34,236 nucleotides of DNA from a bacterium (GCA_030647265.1 JAUSJM010000018.1:1-34236), one strand, 5' to 3'; counted from the stretch's first letter, positions 1,819-15,556 are shown. Notes: a model not told the origin generated them from the sequence alone. Translations and numbers: made by a program.

Positions 1819-3216
1819 ATGGACCCAAGAAAACTTTTAATGAAGATTAAACCCCTCCAGACAGCAGTTCTGGTCCTTTCCCTTGTAGTCCTCTCTTTAG
1901 GAGGCTATCTCCTTTATCAAAAAGCTATTTCTCCCCACCCTCAAGTAGCAGGAGTCTCTTCTCCTTCCCTTCCCGGGAAGTTTGATGATGATTCCTTTTT
2001 TGATGTCCTAGAAGCAGGAGCAGTAGTTAATCCCACTTACCAGGATATCCAATCTGATGTTAATATCTCAGGCATAGTTCAATTAAACCAAAATACTGCT
2101 CCTTCTCCTACTACAGATAAGTTATATAATGTGGCCGGAGACCTTTTTTGGAATGGCATTAAACTTAACTCTGGAGGTTATTGGACACTCTCCGGCAACA
2201 ACTTATATCCTACCACCATAGGTAACAACGTCGGCATCGGAACAGCGGGACCGGGAGCGAAACTACATGTTTCCGGAGGTTCTAGTTCTTCGGATAGACC
2301 ACTGAAACTTCAGTCGACGTCTCAATATGAAGTAGCTGAACTGATAGGGCCTTTATGGACATCTCTGTTGCTTACTAATTCGGGTGGTACTACATCCTTT
2401 ATATCAAATTCTGGTAGTGGCTTAGCTTTTGGTGCAGATAGCACGACGTGGAGTACTACTGATTTGTTTATTGCAAATGCAGGCAACGTTGGCATCGGGA
2501 CGGCGAGTCCAGCAAATAAGTTGGATGTTAATGGTGATGTTGCTTTATCAGGTAAACACGCCTTCAGAAGCAGCGACAGCTGGTTAAGACTTAATCAAGA
2601 TGGTGCTTTTACTTCTGGCGTACACACTCCAGGAGTGTTTGCTCCAGGGTCGTTAAATGTCGGAGGAGCCGGTGGTTGGGGTAATCCAGGCTTTGGTAAT
2701 GCCTGGTTTGTCGGCAACGTCGGCATCGGGACAACAAACCCTTCTCAAAAGCTGGATGTCGCAGGTTATGTCAAAGGTCAGAGTGGGCTTTGTATGAACA
2801 ATGATTGTAGAGCTAGCTGGCCGTCAGGAGGAGATGGAACTTTAAGCGCAATCAAAACTTGGAACTGGTATGCCGCCGGCACTGCGTGGGGAGATGGGAA
2901 TGATTCATATCATGAGCTGGCAGGATGGACTTTTACTGCTCCTGTTGCCGGTGTAGTGGAAGCCAATGGTCAATGGGGACTACAAGATGATGATGACAGT
3001 CATATCGCCATGAGACTTGCTGTTGATTCTCAATACGGGCCAGAAGGTGTTTCTGATAATCCGGCATCATTTAGAGGTGGTATCTCTCAACAATTCTTAG
3101 TAGGTGCAGGTTCTCATCGATTTGCACTGCAGTGGCGCTCCAATGGAGGCTGCTGTAATTACTATAGAGGTGTTTCAGTGTCTGCCAAATTCCTTCCTTC
3201 ACAGGCGAGGAACTGA
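1819..3216 (+). CDS. Membrane-anchored surface protein with tail-fibre/adhesin-like NVGIGTxxPxxKLxVxG repeats
   Basis: N-terminal TM segment; three NVGIGT..P..KL.V.G repeats followed by a C-terminal beta-rich domain. Confidence 0.8.
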   Translation: MDPRKLLMKIKPLQTAVLVLSLVVLSLGGYLLYQKAISPHPQVAGVSSPSLPGKFDDDSFFDVLEAGAVVNPTYQDIQSDVNISGIVQLNQNTAPSPTTDKLYNVAGDLFWNGIKLNSGGYWTLSGNNLYPTTIGNNVGIGTAGPGAKLHVSGGSSSSDRPLKLQSTSQYEVAELIGPLWTSLLLTNSGGTTSFISNSGSGLAFGADSTTWSTTDLFIANAGNVGIGTASPANKLDVNGDVALSGKHAFRSSDSWLRLNQDGAFTSGVHTPGVFAPGSLNVGGAGGWGNPGFGNAWFVGNVGIGTTNPSQKLDVAGYVKGQSGLCMNNDCRASWPSGGDGTLSAIKTWNWYAAGTAWGDGNDSYHELAGWTFTAPVAGVVEANGQWGLQDDDDSHIAMRLAVDSQYGPEGVSDNPASFRGGISQQFLVGAGSHRFALQWRSNGGCCNYYRGVSVSAKFLPSQARN

Positions 3217-3405
3217 GATAACCACTTCAGTTACTATTTGGTACGGAGCCATTAGTGGTGCAAGGTCTGGTCATGGTTGTGATGGAGGTCGTCTTCCCGG
3301 CCAATTAAGAACTTATAAAGCTTCTGTCGGTACCGGATCACACAGTTTTTGGATTAATGTTTGGACCGGACCTTCCGTATGTAGAAAGTTGACTTGGGAG
3401 TAGGA
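3217..3405 (+). pseudogene. Orphan C-terminal fragment of a second surface-protein domain, in a different frame from the upstream gene
   Basis: Frame of ORF 3104..3403 reads TSVTIWYGAISGARSGHGCDGG...YKASVGTGSHSFWINVWTGPSVCRKLTWE*; GTGSHSFWINVW resembles VGAGSHRFALQW of the upstream protein. Confidence 0.5.
3385..3403 (+). repeat. 19-bp direct repeat, left copy (AAAGTTGACTTGGGAGTAG)
   Basis: Identical copy at 4758-4776; brackets the ATPase gene. Confidence 0.9.
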
Positions 3406-3428
3406 AGTTTTATCCTGAAAAGTTTTCA

Positions 3429-3457
3429 TTGACAATGAAAACAATTTATGATAAGAT
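3429..3457 (+). promoter_or_regulatory. Predicted promoter for the DUF4143 ATPase
   Basis: TTGACA (3429-3434), 17 bp, TAAGAT (3452-3457); likely ATG at 3468. Confidence 0.6.
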
Positions 3458-3467
3458 TTCACTTAGA

Positions 3468-4757
3468 ATGAAATTCTCTGATGAGATACGCGCCTTATTA
3501 ATAGAGCAGCGGGAAGAAATTCTCCATAAAGACTTAGGAATAGAGAGAAATAAACTTGCCGAGATCGCGTCATATAAGAACACGCCATTTCCGGTAGTGA
3601 TATCCGGCTTACGTCGAGCAGGAAAGTCAACACTACTGGCACAACTGGCCCACCAATTCTATCCGGATAATAACTATTTCTATGTTAATTTTGAGGATGA
3701 GAGGTTTCTTAGCTTTACAGTAGCAGATTTTACTAAACTGCACGAGCTTTTAATAGAACTTTTTGGAAATCAACAAGTCTTCTTAATGGATGAGGTACAG
3801 AATATAAAAGGGTGGGAAAGCTTTGTTAATAGAATGATCAGAGCAGGATACAAATTTTATATTACCGGCTCTAACGCCTCGCTTCTTTCCAAAGAACTCG
3901 GCACAAAGCTAACCGGACGCTATGTTCCGGTTGAGCTTTTTCCCTTTTCTTTCAAAGAGTACTTAAAGTTTAAAAAGTTGGACCTGCCGGATTTAAAACT
4001 TTTAACAACCGTCCAGAAAGGTGAGCTAAAAAAGGCTTTTAGAGATTATTTACAGGAAGGCGGAGTACCACAAGCCCTACAATATCCCCAGGTGCCAATA
4101 TATAAGACTCTCTATGACGATATTATAAGTCGGGATATTGGAGAAAGGTATAAATTAACCGATACTAAACCACTCCGGGAACTGACATTTTATCTTCTGA
4201 GTAATATTTCCTCCCTTGTTTCTTATAACAAGCTTAAAGGGCTGTTACAACTTGGGAGTGTTAATACTATATCCAGCTACATAGATTATTTAGAGGCCAG
4301 TTGGATGCTTTTGGTGGTTTTCCGTTACGCCTTTTCGGTTAAAAAACAACAGATTGCAAATAAGAAAGTCTACTGTATTGATACGGGACTTGTTAAAGCG
4401 GTGGCGTTTTCTTTTTCCGAGGATAAAGGCAAATTTTTAGAAAATTCTGTCTTTCTAAAACTGCGCAGACTATATGAAGATGACATTTACTATTATAAAA
4501 CAGAGACAGATAAGGAAGTTGATTTTTACCTTCCTAAAGAGAAAACCTTTATCCAGGTTTCTCAAACTATAACCGAACCTACTGCCAGGGAAAGAGAGAT
4601 ACAGGCTTTACTTGAAGCGATGAATGAGGTAGAAAAAAGCACCGGAATAATATTAACGGAAGATGACAATGAGACTCTTGAGTTTGGGGATAAAATAATA
4701 ACTGTATTACCGGTATACAAGTGGTTGTTAGATGAAAAACAAATTAGTTCACTTTAA
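3468..4757 (+). CDS. AAA_14/DUF4143-family ATP-binding protein (ORF track extends to a TTG at 3429)
   Basis: Walker A GLRRAGKST, Walker B VFLMDEVQ, ITGSNASLLSKELGTKLTGRYVPVELFPFSFKEYL, C-terminal EVDFYLPKEKTFIQVS nuclease-like segment. Confidence 0.93.
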   Translation: MKFSDEIRALLIEQREEILHKDLGIERNKLAEIASYKNTPFPVVISGLRRAGKSTLLAQLAHQFYPDNNYFYVNFEDERFLSFTVADFTKLHELLIELFGNQQVFLMDEVQNIKGWESFVNRMIRAGYKFYITGSNASLLSKELGTKLTGRYVPVELFPFSFKEYLKFKKLDLPDLKLLTTVQKGELKKAFRDYLQEGGVPQALQYPQVPIYKTLYDDIISRDIGERYKLTDTKPLRELTFYLLSNISSLVSYNKLKGLLQLGSVNTISSYIDYLEASWMLLVVFRYAFSVKKQQIANKKVYCIDTGLVKAVAFSFSEDKGKFLENSVFLKLRRLYEDDIYYYKTETDKEVDFYLPKEKTFIQVSQTITEPTAREREIQALLEAMNEVEKSTGIILTEDDNETLEFGDKIITVLPVYKWLLDEKQISSL

Positions 4758-5631: not shown

Positions 5632-7055
5632 AGGCACAAAAATTTCTAGTTTTCGTCGTCGGCCTGGCAATTGCCATTGTTGTTTCATCTTTTTATCTTT
5701 GGCCCGGATCCAATATTTTAGCCCAGAGTTGCCCTACCGGTACTAATGCCATTCAGATTGACAGCGGTTTTTTAAGCGTTACCAATCCCAACTCCGCCAC
5801 TAACTTTTCTCTTGACCCAACCTTTTCCTGTATTATTAACAGTGAAGCCCAAATTCCCCAGTTCTCCATTCTTTCCTATGAGGAACTAAAGTCCCTTTAC
5901 TATGACCAGTCCAAAGTAATCAGCAGTTATAAAACGGAGTTCACAGGTTCGATAACAGAATCTCTGACCTCTTTCCCTCTCACAGGTTATCCGGGAAACA
6001 CTATTAATCAATATATCGAAGCAGAGGCATGGACAGATCGAATTAATGGTGCTCAGGGGTCCCAATTCTCCACTCAGCCCGGACCGCCAATTCATATTAC
6101 TCCCAGCAAAACAGCCTCTCCTGGCCCTCGGGTAGGTTACTCAATTTACATTCCTACCCTAGGAGACTACCAAATCTATGCTTATGTTAATACTACCGCC
6201 ACTACTAACAATACCTTCCTCGTTGATTTTGACACCGACCCCTACACAGACATAACAAAAGCCTGGGATATTCCTTCCACAGGGGGAGCTTTTGTGGAAA
6301 AAATTGCTTCCTGGAGAGGCACAACAGGAAGTGATACTAACCCACCTATAGCACAATACTCTCCCAAAATCTGGACTAATTTATCTGCTGGAACTCACAC
6401 TCTTTACATAAGAGGCGCCGAGATAAATGCCAAGTTAGACAAATTTAAGATTGTTCCAGTTTCAGGTGGATCTCAACCTACTCCCCTGCAAAGTAACGAT
6501 CCCTACCGCCTATTTCATATCAGTAAGAATGGAGTAGACCCTGGTAACCTCACTATTGATACCAAATGTCTCTTTCTAAACAACAATGATCAACCAGCCT
6601 GTTCCGGAGATAAAACTACCAATAATGGCACAGTTATTATTTTTGTAGACGGGGATTTAACTATTAACGGTAATATTACCTATGGAGGAGCTGTTGATGC
6701 CTCACTCAACAACACTAAAACCTACGGCACCATCTTTATTGTCAAAGGGAACATTTATGTGGCCACCACTGTCACAGAATTAGATGCTGTTTTCATTACT
6801 GCCGGACCAACCAGCCAATTTTGTGATGCCGCCTCATCCAGTCCCTGTCCCACCTCCGTGGTCTCAGCCAGTGCTTTAATCATTAATGGAGCAGTCATCG
6901 CTTTAAATCCCTCTTATCCTCCCCAATTCATGCGCACCTTGGGAGCCATTAACGGCACTACCCCTGCAGAAACAGTGAAATACCAACCTAAATATTTGGT
7001 AAATTTCAAGGATATCTTAGGAAGAAACCTTTCCATCTGGAACGAGGTTCCTTAA
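5628..7055 (+). CDS. Secreted/surface hypothetical protein, ATGA-coupled to the previous gene
   Basis: N-terminal TM/signal FLVFVVGLAIAIVVSSFYLWPG; ATGA overlap with the upstream stop; IIFVDGDLTINGNITYGG C-terminal region. Confidence 0.8.
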   Translation: MKAQKFLVFVVGLAIAIVVSSFYLWPGSNILAQSCPTGTNAIQIDSGFLSVTNPNSATNFSLDPTFSCIINSEAQIPQFSILSYEELKSLYYDQSKVISSYKTEFTGSITESLTSFPLTGYPGNTINQYIEAEAWTDRINGAQGSQFSTQPGPPIHITPSKTASPGPRVGYSIYIPTLGDYQIYAYVNTTATTNNTFLVDFDTDPYTDITKAWDIPSTGGAFVEKIASWRGTTGSDTNPPIAQYSPKIWTNLSAGTHTLYIRGAEINAKLDKFKIVPVSGGSQPTPLQSNDPYRLFHISKNGVDPGNLTIDTKCLFLNNNDQPACSGDKTTNNGTVIIFVDGDLTINGNITYGGAVDASLNNTKTYGTIFIVKGNIYVATTVTELDAVFITAGPTSQFCDAASSSPCPTSVVSASALIINGAVIALNPSYPPQFMRTLGAINGTTPAETVKYQPKYLVNFKDILGRNLSIWNEVP

Positions 7056-12432: not shown

Positions 12433-14577
12433 ATGTTTACTTCAGACCTTTTATATATCTTTCAATGGTGGATTATCCTTTTTTCTTTAGGGCTGATTTT
12501 TTTCCCTCTCACTTCTCTCCTTTTTAAATCCTTTTTTGATAAAGGTTATATCTTTTCTAAAATCTTAGGAGTATTACTGCTCAGTTATTCTATTTGGCTT
12601 TTAGGAAGTTTAAAAATCCTCAACTTCAGTGTTATTTCTCTGCTGATAGTTTTAGCCTTATTTTTAGTTGTTAATACCTATCTGGCCTACCAGAGGAAAA
12701 CTTCAGAGGCAGTTTTACCAAACCTGAAATTATTTATCTTTGAGGAGGTTCTTTTTACCTTTGGGCTCATCTTTTGGGCCTGGGTGAGGGGTCATGAACC
12801 CTCCATTCATGGTTTGGAAAAGTTTATGGATTTTGGCTTTATCAACTCCATTCTTCGAGCTGATTATTTTCCACCCAAAGATCTTTGGCTGACCCCGGAT
12901 TCTATCAACTATTACTATTTTGGACATTTGGTAACAGCAGTGTTGACCAAACTTTCCGGCATTGATTCCATTATTACCTATAATCTGATGTTAGCTACTC
13001 TTTTTGGTTTAACGCTGGCTGCTTCTTTTTCTCTCGGGGCTAACCTTTACCACAAGTTCACAGTTCACAGTTCACGGTTCACAGTTTTAGCAGGCCTTCT
13101 TAGCTCTTTTCTGGTCACCCTGGGAGGGAACCTTCATACCATCTATGCCTTTTTTCAAACTTATACTCCTGCCGACCAAGCAGTACCTTTTTGGACCCTT
13201 CCTCTAAAGTGGAACTTTTCCGGTTACTGGTATCCCAATGCCACCAGGTTTATCCCCTTCACCATCCACGAGTTTCCTCTCTATTCTTTTGTAGTAGCAG
13301 ATTTACATGGCCATGTCCTGGGTATCCCCTTTATTCTCCTAGCCCTGGCTCTTTTGCTTGTTATTTTCTTCTCCTCCAAACTGCATATTACTCACTACTT
13401 ACTACTTTCACTTCTTATAGCCACTTTTTTGATGACCAACGTTTTAGACGGGCCGATTTATTTATTGGTCATCTTTTTGGTGCTCCTTATGAAAGAAAAA
13501 CAAACCTTGAAGTGGGGTAAAGCCTTTTCAGAAAGCATCCAATCTATGGTAATTATCGTTTTACTGACAGCTGTTTTTTCCCTCCCTTTCTGGCTGGCTT
13601 TTAAACCCTTTGCCTCGGGAGTGGGAGTGCTTTGTGCTCCCCAGTTCTTAGTCAACCGGGGACATCTCGGACCTTTCTTATTTGAAGCTAATCATTGTGC
13701 CCGTTCTCCCCTTTGGATGCTGGCAATACTTTGGGGCTTTCCCTACTTCGTGCTGTTTGGTTTTCTTACCTTTGTTCTCCCTACTAAAAAATTCCTTCAC
13801 TCCATCTTTAGAAAATTACCATCTACCATCTACCATCTACCATCTACAGATTTGCTAGTTCTCACTCTGATCCTCTCTGCCACCATCCTCATCTTCATCC
13901 CTGAGTTTTTCTATGCCAAAGATATCTATCCTGCCCACTACCGGGCTAATACTGTTTTTAAGTTTGGTTACCAAGCCTTTATTATCTTAGGTCTGATATC
14001 TGGTTACATGATCACTAGAATTCTTACCCTTCCTAATAAAACTTTACGCTTCACCCTTTACGCTACACCCTTATTTCTACTTTTTTCCCTGGTAGCCATT
14101 TATCCTAATTTTGCCGTTAACTCCTTCTATGGAGAGCTAAAGACTTACCAAGGACTTGATGGCTTAAGTTACTTAAGTGAGTTATATCCAGCAGATTACC
14201 AGGCAATTCTTTGGCTGAGCCAAAACGTTCCGGGCCAACCGGTTATTTTGGAAGCCCAGGGAGATTCCTACACTGATTATGCCCGGATCTCTTCCAACAC
14301 CGGTCTGCCTACAATAATTGGCTGGCCGGTTCATGAGTGGCTGTGGAGAGGTTCTTATGATGAAGCAGGCAAAAGATCTACTGAAGTCACAATCCTATAT
14401 GAAAGCCAAGACTCAGAGGCCACTAAAAACCTGCTTAAAAAATATAACGTTTCATATGTTTATATTGGAGATTTAGAAAGACAAAAATATCCTAATTTAA
14501 ATGAAACAAAGTTCCAAACCCTGGGAAAAGTGATCTTCCAATCAGGAAACACCAGAATCTACCAGATAAACCCTTAA
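12433..14577 (+). CDS. DUF2298 (Chlor_Arch_YYY) family membrane protein
   Basis: PDSINYYYFGHLVTAVLTKLSGI, FSGYWYPNATRFIPFTIHEFPLYSFVVADLHGHVLGIPF, KDIYPAHYRANTVFKFGYQAFI. Confidence 0.88.
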   Translation: MFTSDLLYIFQWWIILFSLGLIFFPLTSLLFKSFFDKGYIFSKILGVLLLSYSIWLLGSLKILNFSVISLLIVLALFLVVNTYLAYQRKTSEAVLPNLKLFIFEEVLFTFGLIFWAWVRGHEPSIHGLEKFMDFGFINSILRADYFPPKDLWLTPDSINYYYFGHLVTAVLTKLSGIDSIITYNLMLATLFGLTLAASFSLGANLYHKFTVHSSRFTVLAGLLSSFLVTLGGNLHTIYAFFQTYTPADQAVPFWTLPLKWNFSGYWYPNATRFIPFTIHEFPLYSFVVADLHGHVLGIPFILLALALLLVIFFSSKLHITHYLLLSLLIATFLMTNVLDGPIYLLVIFLVLLMKEKQTLKWGKAFSESIQSMVIIVLLTAVFSLPFWLAFKPFASGVGVLCAPQFLVNRGHLGPFLFEANHCARSPLWMLAILWGFPYFVLFGFLTFVLPTKKFLHSIFRKLPSTIYHLPSTDLLVLTLILSATILIFIPEFFYAKDIYPAHYRANTVFKFGYQAFIILGLISGYMITRILTLPNKTLRFTLYATPLFLLFSLVAIYPNFAVNSFYGELKTYQGLDGLSYLSELYPADYQAILWLSQNVPGQPVILEAQGDSYTDYARISSNTGLPTIIGWPVHEWLWRGSYDEAGKRSTEVTILYESQDSEATKNLLKKYNVSYVYIGDLERQKYPNLNETKFQTLGKVIFQSGNTRIYQINP
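13055..13086 (+). repeat. Heptameric tandem repeat AGTTCAC x4 (in ORF)
   Basis: AGTTCAC AGTTCAC AGTTCAC GGTTCAC AGTT; encodes FTVHSSRFTV. Confidence 0.9.
13818..13847 (+). repeat. Heptameric tandem repeat ACCATCT x4 (in ORF)
   Basis: Four perfect ACCATCT units; encodes LPSTIYHLPST. Confidence 0.92.
14042..14069 (+). repeat. Heptameric degenerate tandem repeat (in ORF)
   Basis: CTTTACG CTTCACC CTTTACG CTACACC. Confidence 0.75.
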
Positions 14578-14654
14578 AGTTCTTCTATTTCTTCCAAAGG
14601 ATAAATCCAGATTTGGACTGTTCTTTGTCTAATGGGATTTTTACCAGCAAAGAA
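14574..14654 (-). pseudogene. 3'-terminal fragment of a YjbQ-family gene (duplicate of the 3' end of the gene at 15020-15556)
   Basis: Minus strand reads FAGKNPIRQRTVQIWIYPLEEIEEL*; 50-bp perfect identity 14596-14645 = 15045-15094. Confidence 0.9.
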
Positions 14655-14696
14655 TATTACATCCTTCATATGTGCTTTGTGTTACAATTTAGTAGT

Positions 14697-14831
14697 ATGA
14701 ATCCTAAGGTTGTTACTAAGGCCAGAGAATACACTAAAAAACATCCTAAAAAAGCTGCTCTGATTAAGCGGGCAGTTAAGCGTGGTCTCAAAGAATATGG
14801 CGAAACCTTCAAACTTCTTGCCAACTCCTGA
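14697..14831 (+). CDS. Small basic protein, candidate antitoxin of a Doc module
   Basis: 44 aa MNPKVVTKAREYTKKHPKKAALIKRAVKRGLKEYGETFKLLANS; TGTTACAAT -10-like box just upstream; immediately precedes the Doc remnant. Confidence 0.6.
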   Translation: MNPKVVTKAREYTKKHPKKAALIKRAVKRGLKEYGETFKLLANS

Positions 14832-14833
14832 AA

Positions 14834-15028
14834 GCAAATGGTAATAAAAGAATTGCAGTTATGTCCTTAATAGTCTTTCTCTACATAAATAATAAGTGGA
14901 TTTCTGTTCATCCTGTCGATCTATACAAATTAGCCTGCGAAGTTTCCGAGTCCTCTCCCTCTATAAAAGCCAGTCAGCTAAAGAGTATTGAGAAATTTGT
15001 TGAAGAATCTACCTCTTACCTAGTCTAA
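14834..15028 (+). pseudogene. C-terminal remnant of a Doc (Fic/Doc family) toxin gene
   Basis: Open frame ANGNKRIAVMSLIVFLYINNKWISVHPVDLYKLACEVSESSPSIKASQLKSIEKFVEESTSYLV*; contains the NGNKR core, but the upstream HxF half-motif and N-terminal half are absent. Confidence 0.75.
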
Positions 15029-15556
15029 CATCTCAACCTCTTCTAAAGGATAAATCCAGATTTGGACTGTTCTTTGTCTAATGGGATTTTTACCTGTTCC
15101 ATCCCTGCCATCAAACTCCAAAGCTGCCACCTCCTGATATTTTCCCAGCACAGGCTTATTGTCTTGGATAGGAATAAACACAGAAGGGTGACCATAAAGC
15201 ATCGATCTGATATGGGAAGGAGCATTGTAGTCTTCATCGATCTCATTACAATATGGGTTATCCTGACAACGGTGAGTATAATCACAGGTAGGATAGGTGA
15301 AACCCTCTTTTTTAGCCTGCCAAGCTCTTCTGTCTGTGGGTACTAAATGAAAGGCAAAATTGAGCATGTCTTTTAGTAAATTGGGCTCAGAAATTTCCTG
15401 GATCACTACCGTTAGGGTGGTATGTTTGGAGTTTACCACCACCAAACCTTGTTTAACTTTGGACTTTTTAACAGCTTTTTTTACTTCATCGGTAAGGTTT
15501 TTAAAGTGGGCATAATCTGTGGAAGGAAACTTGATCTCTTTAAGGTAAGCTTTCAT
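15020..15556 (-). CDS. YjbQ/UPF0047 family protein
   Basis: GLVVVNSKHTTLTVVIQEISEPNLLKDM...GKYQEVAALEFDGRDG...RTVQIWIY. Confidence 0.9.
   Translation of the reverse strand: MKAYLKEIKFPSTDYAHFKNLTDEVKKAVKKSKVKQGLVVVNSKHTTLTVVIQEISEPNLLKDMLNFAFHLVPTDRRAWQAKKEGFTYPTCDYTHRCQDNPYCNEIDEDYNAPSHIRSMLYGHPSVFIPIQDNKPVLGKYQEVAALEFDGRDGTGKNPIRQRTVQIWIYPLEEVEMLD

Follow-up and report, generated by a model that had tools for sequence, protein, structure and literature searches.

The window, the whole 34,236-nucleotide stretch of DNA that was analysed, is part of a 785-kb genome (G000; other G numbers denote related genomes). The host is one of the Patescibacteria, and its genome was by all appearances assembled from a metagenome. 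In the window, a DUF2298 membrane protein gene and an intact YjbQ/UPF0047 gene are oriented towards each other on either side of an insert of approximately 0.4 kb, which contains a complete antitoxin gene and a remnant of a Doc/Fic toxin gene (Table 1). The YjbQ/UPF0047 protein was identified with Pfam PF01894 (5e-26, score 91.5 against a cut-off of 27) and also scored above the TIGR00149 cut-off (81.0 against 67.75). Its nearest relative was found in Candidatus Daviesbacteria GW2011_GWA1_41_61 (G016), which is the basis for placing the genome in the Patescibacteria.

Table 1. Features of the yjbQ/Doc locus, numbered from the first nucleotide of the window
Feature	Position	Strand	Evidence or remark
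DUF2298 membrane protein gene, native convergent neighbour of yjbQ	12433–14577	+	PF10060, 1.6e-100
Displaced native yjbQ 3' end, encoding GKNPIRQRTVQIWIYPLEEIEEL and a stop	14574–14645	-	4-bp overlap with DUF2298 stop
Left direct-repeat copy, 56 bp	14590–14645		50 bp exact from 14596
Antitoxin gene, 44 aa, full length	14697–14831	+	39–53-aa homologues precede intact Doc genes in relatives
Doc/Fic toxin remnant, starting at NGNKR	14832–15028	+	Lacks the N-terminal ~75 residues and HPF
New 3' terminus of intact yjbQ (E-VEMLD-stop)	15020–15044	-	Apparently brought in with the insert
Right direct-repeat copy	15039–15094		Within intact yjbQ
Intact YjbQ/UPF0047 gene, 178 aa	15020–15556	-	Putative hybrid of native body and donated tail

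The insert is bracketed by a direct repeat of the yjbQ 3' end. Positions 14596–14645 and 15045–15094 were identical at 50 of 50 bp, exactly as given in the preliminary description, and the repeat could be extended to 55 matches in 56 bp (one mismatch) with a start-to-start spacing of 449. ORF reading agreed with that description in assigning the right copy to the 3' end of the intact gene (IYPLEEVEMLD-stop) and the left copy to a gene-end fragment of 72 bp on the minus strand, whose stop (14574–14576) meets the DUF2298 ORF tail to tail. The Doc stop had likewise been said to overlap that of yjbQ, and the ends of these two genes do overlap tail to tail, by 9 bp. Near direct repeats are rare in this genome; a scan of all of G000 in tiles, for every direct repeat of at least 22 bp within 5 kb of its partner, returned only 19 pairs, so the yjbQ repeat is far beyond chance.

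Comparison with relatives distinguished the native end from the new one. In G007 and G017, DUF2298 and yjbQ converge directly with a 4-bp stop overlap, which is the empty site that had been predicted, and collapsing the repeat in silico in the window produced the same arrangement. The stranded tail, ggaagaaatagaagaactttaa, resembles the yjbQ tail of the nearest relative, ggaaggaatagaggaactttag (G016), both being of the EIEEL-stop type. The tail of the intact gene, agaagaggttgagatgttagactag, differs at most positions and is still YjbQ-like beyond the repeat (LEEVEMLD vs LEEIEEL). Because of the empty sites, the collapsed repeat and the match between the stranded tail and that of the relative, the left copy is, on sequence grounds, the old native end and the intact gene carries a new one. 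The interval itself, whose conservation in relatives was also checked, was not conserved among 57 relatives, with only a weak Doc match in G023. The yjbQ/DUF2298 junction of G023 (G023:C35, 2034–2947) is also interrupted, by a 54-aa ribbon-helix-helix-like ORF and a 197-aa ORF, with no recognisable second yjbQ end.

The toxin gene within the insert is incomplete. In intact relatives (G023, G003, G249, G169 and G289) an antitoxin of 41–53 aa is followed by a Doc protein of 141–150 aa with the motif HPF.NGNKR. Full-length Doc/Fic proteins are recognised by the HPF..GNKR motif together with full length, and in the window only the part from NGNKR onwards is left, directly after the antitoxin stop. 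The remnant matched positions 69–117 of the 122 in TIGR01550 (E 1.7e-4) with a score of 21.7, below the cut-off of 38.65, and showed a 53 % match to the intact Doc of G023 over residues 76–133. The toxin is almost certainly dead, and since it has lost its N-terminal half, addiction at this locus is probably gone. The very short antitoxin (39–53 aa, with the motif ...NPKKA..IKKAV..G.KQY..TF.KLA) defines a branch of Doc/Fic loci (L315–L325; L315 1142–1698, reverse strand; window 14697–14831), and in L315–L325 its stop overlaps the toxin start. In another Doc/Fic branch (85 aa) an HTH-like domain precedes the same antitoxin C-terminal part. The 44-aa form seems to be a neutralising peptide that lacks a DNA-binding domain.

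Repeat-bracketed inserts were found elsewhere in G000. Most of the other near repeats were coding repeats or paralogues, plus one tRNA-adjacent repeat, and most of the remaining pairs bracket compact inserts. These are an AbiEii gene (26/26 bp), an MNT-HEPN pair (27/26), a Fic gene at the GAPDH 5' end (27/27), a PIN-MazE pair at the GAPDH 3' end (74/64) and an unknown 242-aa ORF at the end of a Rad50-like gene (27/26). Visual checking of these inserts detected no terminal inverted repeats. The stranded GAPDH 3' end still adjoins its native neighbour, as in G016, and the neighbour that the intact gene now faces is the PIN-MazE pair. A start codon is missing from the stranded copy at the GAPDH 5' end, which donation of a gene end does not account for.

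Three further sites in G000 were recorded. At the Rad50-like gene (G000:C15, L087/L115, 19564–21053) two stranded gene ends lie in series, the first after the 242-aa ORF (no Pfam match in the part scanned) and the second after a 94-aa ORF and a DUF5674 gene, an order that suggests repeated insertion at one gene end. The 3' end of rpsJ, encoding ribosomal protein S10, is duplicated 59 bp downstream with no cargo (G000:C29, L100, 1635–1697 and 1753–1812; 13 synonymous to 2 non-synonymous differences), and is apparently what the same process left behind once the insert had been lost. Finally, AbiE insertions of two genera (G000:C5 9075–9126, and L308 in G016:C3 6810–6861) may occupy the same site, since they share 52 bp of homologous flank (83 %).

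Among the 57 relatives, repeats bracketed 26 of 70 toxin-antitoxin (TA) loci (HEPN 7/16, AbiEii 12/27, Doc 7/27), an upper figure that includes some dispersed intergenic repeats, as against 0 of 43 control loci (L35 0/25, YjbQ 0/18; Fisher p 4e-7), the controls being conserved genes rather than other accessory genes. A search for other TA genes beside duplicated gene ends had been proposed in the preliminary description, and many were found; at least 13 TA loci in 10 genomes, read in detail, proved to be of this kind. The ends concerned belong to yjbQ and both ends of GAPDH (G000), the SpoU 5' end and an epimerase-like gene (G032), an ABC ATPase (G010), infB (G015), a 145-aa gene (G028), a 406-aa gene (G054), the GAPDH 3' end (G020, G030 and G016) and, around a Phd-PIN pair, a penicillin-binding protein (G039). 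GAPDH 3' ends are thus stranded beyond TA genes in four genomes (G000, G020, G030 and G016), with breakpoints that differ by more than 20 bp. G039, whose assembly is a single contig of 1.02 Mb, has in addition an AbiE gene flanked by 59/56-bp repeats.

A fixed length of target duplication, considered when four repeats measured 26–27 bp, was dropped because repeats in other genomes span 21–112 bp (56 bp at yjbQ). The displaced pieces are always short, approximately 20–115 bp, and so shorter than the single-crossover products obtained in the laboratory. At the HEPN loci the homologous unit is just the operon, 15–20 bp inside the repeats. Cargo other than TA genes is also present, at the Rad50-like gene of G000 and at the ends of a 117-aa and a 495-aa gene of G039; in the former of these two (L303, 9520–10314) the 3' end of the 117-aa gene occurs twice (24/23 bp), on either side of a 234-aa lipoprotein-like ORF. 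Locus L236 (G016:C6) contains two GAPDH copies (2943–3863 and 5661–6575), each frameshifted by a different small deletion shortly before the IFAWYDNE segment, the usual starting point of stranded GAPDH ends, and a third GAPDH 3' fragment lies there between two TA loci.

Codon positions were used to distinguish donated ends from copied targets. A plain target duplication would leave the stranded copy free to drift, with differences at all codon positions. In repeats found by DNA identity alone, differences numbered 7, 5 and 26 at codon positions 1, 2 and 3, and codons inside genes contained 27 synonymous and 10 non-synonymous differences between intact and displaced ends. Drift predicts 6–8 synonymous differences, and 27 was reached in 0 of 4000 simulations. 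All six differing sites at the infB end (G015) are synonymous, and in the ABC gene of G010 a stretch of 29 identical bp is followed in both copies by K, F and stop, written AAA TTT TAA in one and AAG TTC TGA in the other. Ends found by protein comparison gave synonymous to non-synonymous counts of 8 to 1 (penicillin-binding protein, G039), 13 to 2 (rpsJ, G000) and 12 to 6 (GAPDH, G020), which are not independent evidence because such a search favours conserved protein. The second Rad50-like end disagrees, at 2 to 15. Comparing the two GAPDH ends with other genera by nucleotide distance was not informative; the codon-level test was decisive. Because the differences are mostly synonymous, the two ends are in many cases, as far as codons can tell, alleles with separate histories in functional genes, joined only later. 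At yjbQ, 50 bp are identical and the tail differs, whereas the diverged repeats elsewhere carry synonymous allele differences; a single parent must have supplied the 50 identical bases, the change to the foreign allele falling within the last codons, unless the copies were converted later.

These observations are probably best explained by entry of a TA pair together with a donor gene end through homology on one side, the new end being donated and the old end stranded. The preliminary description had proposed that incoming DNA with the antitoxin, Doc and a YjbQ end donated a new C terminus in this way, and the native stranded tail and the homologous new tail bear it out. It gains further support because many other TA loci have the same structure and synonymously diverged gene ends. 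The donor would have been a related bacterium with the TA pair tail to tail with yjbQ, and the incoming piece would have comprised the antitoxin gene, Doc and the last codons of the donor yjbQ. A homologous anchor is present on one side only, on the right through the yjbQ tail, with none past the left junction. Recombination with the recipient yjbQ may have used homology at the gene end alone. Across the cases, one side shows homology at a gene end and the other a non-homologous joint, a combination that both homology-facilitated illegitimate recombination and a single crossover with a small circle are known to produce. Here the crossover could have been a single one with such a circle; alternatively, one-sided homology could have been paired with illegitimate joining at the other end. 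The intact yjbQ would have kept its body and taken the last ~7 codons of the donor, while the recipient's own last ~70 bp would have been stranded past the insert, still abutting DUF2298; the toxin would have lost its N-terminal half later. Pilus and competence genes are reported to be prevalent in Patescibacteria (PMC12455944), which makes transformation a plausible route of uptake.

As neither neighbouring gene is broken, a compact genome may tolerate such insertions. Recombination between flanking direct repeats would easily remove an insert unless its loss were harmful, and since cells are punished for losing a TA pair, repeat-flanked inserts that contain one would persist; retention of this kind would be the simplest explanation for the strong association with TA genes. 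Several points weigh against this explanation: the identical 50 bp at yjbQ, a new tail of only ~7 codons, the GAPDH 5' copy, the shortness of the displaced pieces, the choice of conserved genes as controls, the dispersed repeats among the 26, the non-TA cargo and the metagenomic assemblies. In addition, no donor was found. The Doc-remnant search across 374 genomes of the class returned only TA-pair relatives and no genome with yjbQ beside this Doc. Plasmids showed no DNA similarity to the interval, tblastn with YjbQ gave no match in phages or in IMG/VR viral contigs, and the exact 50-bp pattern was absent from GTDB contigs. For GAPDH, a candidate donor-like arrangement was detected in G023, in which the gene is followed by a related MazE-PIN pair.

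Strict long target duplication, in which an unknown end-joining or transposition-like mechanism would insert the TA unit and copy 20–110 bp of the target, leaving two copies that both stem from the recipient, would give the same outer anatomy. It would suit the perfect or near-perfect repeats (27/27, 26/26, 29/29, 21/21), the HEPN unit that consists of the operon only, 15–20 bp inside its repeats, and the lack of inverted terminal repeats. It is nevertheless an unlikely explanation, as homologous coding continues past the repeat with synonymous changes (G010 and yjbQ), diverged repeats differ mainly at synonymous sites, and the GAPDH 3' end has been used repeatedly in different genera.

Integrative elements may use and restore gene 3' ends, supplying the new end. 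The preliminary description had drawn this analogy, and a tyrosine-recombinase element now reduced to its TA cargo, with the yjbQ 3' end as the restored attachment site, would leave a duplicated, restored gene end with an identical core, as in the textbook mark, and could favour one site repeatedly, as at the GAPDH 3' end. However, the yjbQ insert contains only the antitoxin gene and the Doc remnant and no recombinase gene, no integrase was found among the genes read in other inserts, and no fixed attachment site was seen. Many unrelated genes were targeted, at 5' and 3' ends within one genome, and the GAPDH-end breakpoints vary; the analogy is not supported, and such an origin is improbable.

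Diverged gene ends would also result if yjbQ had been duplicated in tandem, one copy had decayed and the TA pair had come in independently. A full tandem YjbQ paralogue was looked for and none was present in the genomes searched, the paralogue would have to have been reduced to its last 72 bp, and the same pattern occurs in genes usually present only once per genome, rpsJ and infB among them, which makes this history very improbable. Joining of two strains at a common word of ~50 bp during metagenome assembly is hardly credible here, even with a repeat length near common word sizes, as it would need both junctions and other cases have mismatched repeats; an assembly artefact in general is unlikely because cases occur in the single contig of G039.

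Acquisition of TA pairs with a donated gene end shares features with several known systems. Restriction-modification genes have been described as inserting with long target duplication (Nobusato et al. 2000, as described in PMC1643837, PMC3031569 and PMC3874152); as far as these accounts go, the genes lie between long, variable target repeats, are unlinked to a known mobile element and were found by comparison of close genomes. Both cases have addictive cargo, long variable direct repeats of the target (21–112 bp here) and relatives with a single copy and no insert. Unlike those insertions, the present ones involve TA pairs in Patescibacteria, and what is repeated is a gene end, often with a diverged allele as the copy next to the insert; the 'duplication' is therefore at least partly donated. 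In an Escherichia coli conjugation experiment, most products of a one-anchor design were partial gene-end duplications of 109–950 bp (PMC3240628). The single homologous anchor at a gene end is common to such homology-facilitated illegitimate recombination or single crossover and to the present loci, but the latter are natural and recurrent, with much shorter pieces and TA cargo, and are known from genomes only. C-terminal displacement at Rhs/T6SS effector loci leaves serial stranded 3' ends and orphan immunity genes (PMC5361080). There too a homology-anchored incoming toxin module pushes the old 3' end downstream, with serial remnants like those at the GAPDH end; here, in contrast, the anchor is an unrelated housekeeping gene that is kept functional, not the toxin gene itself. 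As with integrative elements, the 3' end of a host gene is duplicated and the new end comes from the incoming DNA, but there is no integrase and no fixed site, and the inserts consist of approximately 0.4–1.5 kb of one or two TA operons. The literature searched contained no description of a TA-pair version, its frequency in these bacteria or codon-level evidence for donated ends.

How chromosomal TA pairs move without a mobile element has been an open question, and the results point to their spreading simply among these ultra-small bacteria, with neither transposon nor integrase. Possibly, though this is doubtful, TA pairs are themselves recombinase-free mobile units, in which recombination between the repeats frees a small circle of the TA pair and one gene end, and homology lets this circle integrate at the corresponding gene end in other cells. 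If so, a short piece of a housekeeping gene would be the attachment site and addiction the maintenance system. Each stranded gene end records one acquisition as a footprint that has a direction and can be dated, showing the native and the foreign copy and a rough donor distance, and any genome can be scanned for such ends. Should the pattern hold, it would explain TA turnover in streamlined Patescibacteria and would mean that housekeeping genes silently swap their last codons.
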